Shown here: one piece after another, positions 7,183 to 10,365 of the stretch
Layout of the letters: the number at the start of each line of letters is the position of its first letter
How positions within the stretch are numbered: the first letter of the stretch is position 1
Assembly: GCA_902592345.1 (NCBI GenBank)
Contig: CACJEE010000008.1
Span: 1-42,630 of the forward strand
DNA from: an uncultured Alphaproteobacteria bacterium
GTDB taxonomy: Bacteria; Pseudomonadota; Alphaproteobacteria; HIMB59; GCA-002718135
Direction: 5' to 3'
DNA length: 42,630 bases
Notes under the pieces: generated by a model
Seen by the model: the letters and a program-made list of their open reading frames with translations, nothing else
Told to the model about the DNA's origin: nothing
Database searches by the model: none
Made by a program: the position numbers and the translations under genes

Positions 7183-8616
7183 TTAGACATCATAATAAAG
7201 ATTAAACTCATGTGGATGAGGTCTTATATCCATTGGGCTAACTTCATTTTCCCTTTTGTAAGCAATATAAGTTTCAATGTTATCTTTAGTAAATACATCG
7301 CCCTTAAGCAAATATTTATGATCTTTTTCTAAAGCATCAAGAGACTCAGCAAGAGAACCAGGTGTTGAAGGAATTTTTTCTAAGACACTAGCTGGAGCTT
7401 CATATATATTTATATCCGTAGGTTTACCTGGATTAATCTTATTTTTAACACCATCTAAACCTGCCATTAATATCGCTGAAAATGCTAGATAAGGATTTGA
7501 AGAAGGGTCTGGACATCTAAACTCAATTCTTTTTGCTTTAGGGCTAGCTGTATAGTTCTTAGGTATTCTAACAGATGCAGTTCTATTAGCAGCAGAATAA
7601 GCAATATTTACAGGTGCTTCAAATCCTGGCACCAAACGTTTATAAGAATTTGTTGTAGGTGCACAAAAAGCTAATAATGATGGAGCATGTTTTAATATTC
7701 CACCTATGTAATAAAGTGCAAATTCACTTAAATCTGCGTAGTTACCTTTTTTATACATTAGTGTTTTATTTTTTTTCCAGATACTAGAATGAACATGCAT
7801 GCCTGATCCATTATCTTCAAAAAGTGGTTTTGGCATAAATGTTGCAGTAAGACCATGAAGTTTAGCAACATTTTTAACAACATATTTATATCTCAATAAA
7901 TCATCAGCCATTGATAATAGTGGTGAGAATTCTAAATCAATCTCACACTGTCCCCCAGTTGCAACTTCATGGTGCGAAGCTTCAACATTAATTCCGATAT
8001 CCTCCATTGTTAAAACCATTTCAGTTCTAACATCTTGCAAACTATCAGATGGAGGTAATGGGAAATACCCACCTTTATGTCTTGGTTTGTGTCCTAAATT
8101 TGGATTTTCATCTTTTCCTGTGTTCCAAGCTCCTTCAGTAGAGTCTACTTCATGAAAAGCAAAGTTAGAACCTGAGTCATACTTAACATCATTAAATACA
8201 AAAAATTCAGCTTCAGGGCCAAAATATGCTATATCACCCATACCAGAAGATTTAAGATATTTTTCTGCCTTTTTTGCAATATATCTAGGATCTCTCGTAT
8301 AACTTTCATAAGTAATTGGATCAACAACATCACAAGTAAATGCAATTGTTTTTTCAGAATAAAATGGATCAACGTATGCGGTGGTTACATCAGGTACCAT
8401 TGCCATATCACTATTTTCAATGGATTGAAATCCTCTAACAGATGAGCCATCAAAACCAACACCATCTTTAAATAAATCTTCAGTTAAATATTTAATTGGA
8501 ATTGAGATATGATGTGTTGATCCAGGCATGTCTGTGAAACGAAGATCAACCATTTTTATTTCTTCATTTTTAATTTTTTTTAATAATTCTTTAGCAGTCT
8601 TGCATTTATATTTCAT
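7183..8616 (-). CDS. glnA: Glutamine synthetase, type I
   Basis: Dodecameric GS-I, which condenses ammonia and glutamate with ATP to glutamine, the main ammonium assimilation step. 477 aa from the chosen start. Characteristic segments include DGSSVRGFQSIENSDM, the metal-site FGPEAEFFVF, VEASHHEVATGGQCEID, FMPKPLFEDNGSGMHVHSS, and VPGFEAPVNIAYSAANR followed by RIEFRCPDPSSNPYLA. The tyrosine in INIYEAPA sits where the GS-I adenylylation tyrosine normally lies. The track starts at ATG 8637, but the ATG at 8616 is preceded by GAGGTG at ideal spacing and begins the conserved protein (MKYKCKTA), so I prefer it. The leader contains two tandem glnA riboswitches and a separate 10-bp hairpin. A strong terminator follows. 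Confidence 0.95.
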   Translation of the reverse strand: MKYKCKTAKELLKKIKNEEIKMVDLRFTDMPGSTHHISIPIKYLTEDLFKDGVGFDGSSVRGFQSIENSDMAMVPDVTTAYVDPFYSEKTIAFTCDVVDPITYESYTRDPRYIAKKAEKYLKSSGMGDIAYFGPEAEFFVFNDVKYDSGSNFAFHEVDSTEGAWNTGKDENPNLGHKPRHKGGYFPLPPSDSLQDVRTEMVLTMEDIGINVEASHHEVATGGQCEIDLEFSPLLSMADDLLRYKYVVKNVAKLHGLTATFMPKPLFEDNGSGMHVHSSIWKKNKTLMYKKGNYADLSEFALYYIGGILKHAPSLLAFCAPTTNSYKRLVPGFEAPVNIAYSAANRTASVRIPKNYTASPKAKRIEFRCPDPSSNPYLAFSAILMAGLDGVKNKINPGKPTDINIYEAPASVLEKIPSTPGSLAESLDALEKDHKYLLKGDVFTKDNIETYIAYKRENEVSPMDIRPHPHEFNLYYDV

Positions 8617-8639
8617 ATACACCTCATGTTCTAACATTG

Positions 8640-8664
8640 ACTAATTTCAACAACTGAAATTAGT
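8640..8664 (-). promoter_or_regulatory. 10-bp hairpin in the glnA leader, possible expression platform
   Basis: A perfect inverted repeat, ACTAATTTCA / TGAAATTAGT with a 5-base loop, lies between the glnA-proximal riboswitch and the glnA Shine-Dalgarno (GAGGTG). On the minus strand it is not followed by a U-run, so it is not an obvious terminator. Its position fits an expression-platform or mRNA-stabilising element, but no anti-Shine-Dalgarno pairing is visible, so the role is inferred. Confidence 0.5.
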
Positions 8665-8709
8665 TTATTAATCAATTCATGCTCTAGTTATGAAATCTGC
8701 TTTTTTTCC

Positions 8710-8757
8710 GCGTTCCTTCAGCTGAAGCTTACTTCCGACCCAAAAGGGTTGAACGAT
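8710..8757 (-). ncRNA. glnA RNA (glutamine riboswitch), glnA-proximal copy
   Basis: Read on the minus strand this matches the glnA RNA aptamer. An outer stem pairs CGTTC with GAACG. A second hairpin is ACCC-TTTT-GGGT. It is followed by the conserved CGGAAGTA, a short third hairpin AGC-TTCA-GCT, and the conserved GAAGGAACGC. The motif class binds L-glutamine. It lies upstream of glnA and downstream of glnB, so it can regulate glnA separately from the upstream genes. The second stem differs completely in sequence from the neighbouring copy yet still pairs, which supports the fold. Confidence 0.9.
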
Positions 8758-8772
8758 TTATAACTTTTGCAT

Positions 8773-8828
8773 GCGTTCCTTCGGTCAAAGACCTACTTCC
8801 GATTTAAGAAAATCTTAAATTGAACGAT
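8773..8828 (-). ncRNA. glnA RNA (glutamine riboswitch), glnB-proximal copy
   Basis: Second copy of the same aptamer, separated from the first by 15 bases. The outer stem pairs CGTTC with GAACG. The second hairpin is a perfect ATTTAAGA-TTT-TCTTAAAT. It is followed by CGGAAGTAG, a third hairpin GGTC-TTT-GACC, and GAAGGAACGC. Junction nucleotides are identical to the first copy while stem sequences vary. Tandem aptamers of this class usually suggest a steeper or more sensitive response to glutamine. No clear promoter is visible in the 41 bases between this copy and the glnB stop, so readthrough from glnB and a local promoter are both possible. Confidence 0.92.
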
Positions 8829-8869
8829 TAAAAGTCTTTTATTAATTTTATCAAAAAAGTAAAGTTAAT

Positions 8870-10365
<1,496 letters not shown>

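Follow-up and report, generated by a model that had tools for sequence, protein, structure and literature searches.

The question raised by this locus is what a pair of RNA aptamers between glnB and glnA of an uncultured alphaproteobacterium senses, and how it could act on glnA. In the window (the whole stretch of 42,630 nucleotides that was analysed) the gap between these genes contains two full-length matches (1-53/53) to the Rfam Glutamine riboswitch model RF01739, both on the minus strand: aptamer 1 at 8770..8828 (59.9 bits, E 6.8e-11) and aptamer 2 at 8707..8757 (64.5 bits, E 3.6e-12). The preliminary description had proposed tandem glnA-type riboswitches in this gap and named a covariance-model search of both copies as the check; both matches proved significant, far above the gathering score of 35. 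The feature is confirmed as tandem glutamine aptamers in the glnA leader. Glutamine binding by both aptamers is predicted from their membership of the RF01739 class.

The two copies share the same junction bases (CGGAAGTA, GAAGGAACG and GTTCAA). As had been read earlier, their P2 stems (ATTTAAG..CTTAAAT vs ACCC..GGGT) and P3 stems (GGTC..GACC vs AGCT..AGCT) are unlike in sequence yet paired. In P2 and P3 of aptamer 2 seven pairs are changed on both sides among 54 relatives, meaning that these stems are kept by covariation. The C after GAACG, the equivalent of the linchpin C60 on the 3′ side of P1, is invariant in both aptamers across 54 sequences. The earlier figure of 15 bases for the spacing has to be corrected: the Rfam matches lie 12 bases apart, and the linker, counted from the P1 end of copy 1 (GAACG) to the P1 start of copy 2 (CGTTC), is 18 bases long.

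The identities of the surrounding genes agree with the first reading of an aminotransferase-glnB-glnA block. The aminotransferase gene (9208-10365) is followed by glnB, encoding the PII protein (8870..9211, minus strand; PF00543, 110.5 bits), and by glnA, encoding a type I glutamine synthetase (7183..8616, minus strand; TIGR00653, 651 bits against a cut-off of 429). The glnA start appears better placed at 8616 than at the ORF start at 8637, because a Shine-Dalgarno (SD) sequence (ATGAGGT, 8621..8627, minus strand) lies just before it, 4 nt ahead of the ATG. An AT-rich hairpin (8640..8664, minus strand; inverted repeat ACTAATTTCAGTTGTTGAAATTAGT) occupies the region between this SD and the 3′ element described below, and relatives with a different sequence also have a hairpin at this site. 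The spacer between glnB and the aptamers (8829..8869, minus strand) holds a proposed glnA promoter: CTTTAC follows the glnB stop in 28/28 distinct relatives, with a -10-like motif (TAATNA/ATAAAAG) about 17 nt on. The suggestion that glutamine tunes glnA alone is plausible given this motif pair in every relative, though a generic sigma-70 consensus promoter scan of the leader region found nothing. Transcriptional control by an intrinsic terminator was also considered and rejected, as none is present in 8600-9000.

The tandem is a family trait. Five aptamers are present in the genome that contains the window (62 contigs totalling 1.33 Mb, 76% completeness): the glnA pair, a pair ahead of one ammonium transporter gene, and a lone aptamer ahead of another. 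Of 100 genomes of the same family, 97 contain the aptamer and 96 contain at least one tandem by exact pattern; a reversed control pattern had 0 matches, so the tandems are not a chance finding. Family genomes have up to four tandem riboswitches, and these precede glnA, ammonium transporter genes (amt) and a cpATP-grasp gene, a set largely concerned with nitrogen assimilation. The order glnB-[tandem]-glnA is kept in five genera of the family. Class-wide, the aptamer was found in only 6/385 genomes. No aptamer was found in the three genomes sampled from the sister family, two of which have glnB directly ahead of glnA with nothing between. Since the aptamer is rare in the class and the glnB-glnA pair is bare in the sister family, this family either gained the tandem or retained it, within a glnB-glnA pair that is older.

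Scanning GTDB genomes also uncovered tandems in SAR116, as well as in SAR86 and other gammaproteobacteria. The gammaproteobacterial tandems (SAR86 included) have other linkers and are found ahead of GSII, amt or TonB-receptor-like genes. In two SAR86-type contigs (L048, L102) three glutamine aptamers stand in a row, with an ammonium transporter gene about 850 nt on; in three others (L045, L093, L142) a tandem lies directly ahead of a TonB-dependent-receptor-like gene, an unusual riboswitch target. Gammaproteobacterial tandems before GSII (L063, L067, L099, L107, L124) have a conserved GTTAAAC..GTTTAAC hairpin, and some of these leaders have a CTTCTAT stretch complementary to the SD.

How could two aptamers act on one gene? 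Comparison of 104 tandem leaders uncovered two conserved blocks outside the Rfam model. One is the inter-aptamer linker (CATGCAAAAGTTATAAAT; 8756..8773, minus strand), conserved in all alphaproteobacterial tandems. The other is a conserved 3′ element (GATTTCATAACTAGAGCATGA; 8677..8697, minus strand), which reads ATTTCATAACTAGAGCATGA ahead of glnA and ATTTCCATAGCTAAGCATGA ahead of amt and cpATP-grasp. Because the two blocks are complementary, they are proposed to pair as a helix, P0, that surrounds aptamer 2, with the linker as its 5′ strand and the 3′ element as a putative switching strand, able to pair with either the linker or the glnA start codon. In the window the P0 pairs are 8773-8769/8678-8682, 8765-8760/8686-8691 and 8759-8756/8693-8696, with C8692 bulged. 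The helix consists, in order, of CATGC/GCATG, a symmetric internal loop, AGTTAT with ATAACT or ATAGCT, and AAAT/ATTT, the last directly beneath P1 of aptamer 2. Its first base, C8773, is the linchpin C60 equivalent of aptamer 1, and this is so in 54/54 sequences.

The first two parts of P0 are formed in each of the 56 distinct linker/flank pairs. The duplex of linker and 3′ flank has a z of about -4 against dinucleotide shuffles (p <= 0.01 in >90% of the 56 pairs), and CATGC/GCATG was recovered unprompted by RNAalifold in 54/54, with G-U variants. The internal loop has the same size on both strands, 3x3 in glnA and 2x2 in amt. Where the glnA linker changes from AU to UG or from AU to AG, at least 9 pairs are kept through a shift of the single bulge. 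Two-sided substitutions are few, and the support for P0 comes from complementarity, not from classical covariation. Column-wise covariation of the whole of P0 in one MAFFT alignment was tried and misses P0b, because the glnA and amt linkers are offset by one base; it was replaced by per-class duplex energies.

A tandem with the same frame is found ahead of a circularly permuted ATP-grasp gene (PF14403/PF04174) in L011-L035 (e.g. L012:1526-1673). Between riboswitch and gene these leaders contain a short ORF (about 20 codons) whose SD lies in a hairpin loop and whose stop is close to the start of the gene or overlaps it.

In glnA leaders the 3′ element has a second possible partner. Its ATTTCATA is the exact complement, over 8 bp, of TATGAAAT, which comprises the start codon and its neighbours; in the window, 8696-8689 pair with 8617-8610. 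ATGAAAT is present in 13/13 distinct glnA start regions, which are orthologues and therefore not independent, versus 1.5% of 202 other genes. The energy of the glnA element-start duplex is matched by 2% of background starts, and the sister-family glnA genes without aptamers start with ATGGAC/ATGGAT. P0 and the start pairing overlap and are mutually exclusive, in the glnA class only. When either fold was forced, the two were near isoenergetic across 33 leaders (mean of -42.5 kcal/mol for P0 and -44.4 kcal/mol for the start-paired fold; -41.8 and -46.0 kcal/mol for the window's leader). Ensemble folding with the aptamers forced gave energies with no clear lean to the OFF fold. In amt leaders the 3′ element can cover the SD (TATGGAG), hardly better than in background genes, and cpATP-grasp leaders show no start or SD pairing signal for this element. 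Sequestration of the start or SD as a general rule for all targets was therefore rejected, being good for glnA, weak for amt and absent for cpATP-grasp; it is supported for glnA only.

These observations suggest a switch. A short helix below P1 is said to melt when glutamine binds, in work by Ren in 2015. In the solved aptamer structure, glutamine binding inserts the junction base G23 into P1, where it pairs with C60 just beyond P1 (PMC11477058). In the glnA leader P0 begins with the C60 equivalent of aptamer 1, and its pairs beneath aptamer 2 correspond to the helix below P1, so both aptamers would open P0 on binding. At low glutamine P0 would be formed and the glnA start codon free (ON). Glutamine on aptamer 1 would take the first C of the linker into the linchpin pair, and glutamine on aptamer 2 would rearrange the foot of P1, which P0 adjoins. 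In either case P0 would be weakened, letting the 3′ element pair with the start codon, and GlnA synthesis would stop (OFF). With two sensors acting on a single switching helix, the response would be steep. The reading of the feature as a tandem type-1 glutamine riboswitch in the glnA leader that acts on translation, glutamine opening P0 and thereby closing the start codon, is judged somewhat better than even. For the glnA tandem we infer both OFF polarity and cooperativity.

The polarity could be the opposite. Glutamine at aptamer 2 might stabilise P1 together with the P0 stacked on it, freeing the start codon and turning glnA ON, as for cyanobacterial gifB. The characterised cyanobacterial relatives are indeed ON switches, activated by glutamine, which counts against OFF here (PMC6316151). 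The AAAU/AUUU of P0 abuts P1 of aptamer 2, so stabilisation of P1 might stabilise P0 as well. However, more glutamine synthetase and more ammonium transporters at high glutamine is physiologically the wrong sign, while OFF would be the sensible direction for glnA and amt. In 54/54 sequences, moreover, P0 includes the linchpin C of aptamer 1, and glutamine bound there should open the helix. Since P0 uses the base just 3′ of aptamer 1 P1, which glutamine should capture, an OFF switch is favoured and ON polarity is considered unlikely.

Alternatively, the aptamers may be independent of each other with local effects, the linker and 3′ element having some other use (protein or sRNA binding, or mRNA stability). 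That both blocks are kept as primary sequence with few compensatory changes would fit. Nevertheless, they are complementary in every case and the internal-loop sizes are matched, and neither block is found in single-aptamer amt1 leaders, which makes independence slightly less probable still than reversed polarity. A duplicated aptamer that has decayed or is non-functional is very improbable: no observation speaks for it, the junctions are intact, both copies score far above the cut-off, a tandem occurs in 96/100 relatives and the stems covary.

The preferred OFF switch at glnA has to be set beside the protein regulators of nitrogen. One PII gene is present in 16/20 family genomes, and it adjoins the tandem wherever coordinates were compared. 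GlnD and GlnE were each found in 0/20 family genomes by searches whose E. coli and Caulobacter controls were positive, and the NtrC matches in the family are all below the equivalog cut-off. Of the two layers of control suggested earlier, PII and riboswitch, the retention of PII therefore stands, but with no GlnD, GlnE or above-cut-off NtrC found, PII is not the classical second layer that reads glutamine. In enteric bacteria the protein GlnD reads glutamine. PII in this family probably does not carry the usual glutamine signal read by GlnD, and no glutamine sensor other than the RNA could be identified at glnA. A similar state of PII without GlnD is described for SAR11 IIIa/LD12 (PMC10030771). 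In the window's PII (8870-9211) the T-loop tyrosine position is kept, judged by eye, though GlnD was not found in the family, and the T-loop has one residue more than that of E. coli GlnB.

Nearly every genome of the family has a tandem, which seems to stand in for the missing proteins in glutamine sensing. The fullest version of the preferred reading is that the coupled aptamers share P0, that glutamine on either opens P0 and closes the start, and that this OFF switch acts on translation and replaces GlnD as the glutamine sensor throughout a family of small-genome marine bacteria. It is put forward tentatively, with a chance just short of even. If true, streamlined ocean bacteria would have a compact RNA substitute for the protein cascade. 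It would also be a glutamine switch of OFF type, unlike the characterised ones, which are ON, and would offer a readily testable example of two aptamers wired to one helix.

Weinberg 2010 (PMC2864571) described glnA RNAs in tandem from marine metagenomes, upstream of genes for glutamine synthetase, PII and ammonium transporters. The window's pair resembles that glnA RNA, the type 1 glutamine riboswitch (RF01739), in its full-length high-scoring copies, marine origin, glnA/amt/PII context and tandem arrangement (PMC2864571). It differs in that the host here is a defined alphaproteobacterial family in which the tandem is near-universal, and in that the P0 frame of linker and element and the start-codon complementarity lie outside the RF01739 model. 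The cyanobacterial gifB riboswitch shares the aptamer class and the ligand, but it controls a different gene with ON polarity (PMC6316151), whereas OFF is predicted for the glnA tandem. Tandems of the glycine riboswitch type also have two like aptamers in one leader and a short conserved linker; here, in contrast, coupling is proposed to run via one switching helix around aptamer 2.

Marine viruses have tandem glutamine riboswitches too (105 viral stretches, loci L187-L266 and others), with two RF01739-type aptamers and a translational platform. Unlike the alphaproteobacterial leaders, they have a short linker that complements the P3 loop of the second aptamer, and the SD strand pairs directly with that aptamer's 3′ flank; the alphaproteobacterial 3′ element was found in 0/100 of them. 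In 14/30 distinct combinations (shuffle mean 5.9, maximum 11 of 2000) the bases following aptamer 1 (CATTA/CATTG/TATTA) are complementary to the loop of P3 in aptamer 2 (TAATG/CAATG/TAATA). Complementarity between the 3′ flank of aptamer 2 and the SD strand holds in 99/100 and is accompanied by covariation (CACC/GGTG, CATCT/AGATG, CAATCT/AGATTG). This looks like an aptamer-aptamer contact combined with an SD hairpin starting at the linchpin C. The window's pair belongs to a kind known since 2010; the present analysis adds the family-wide regulon, the start-codon element and the frame by which P0 would couple the aptamers.
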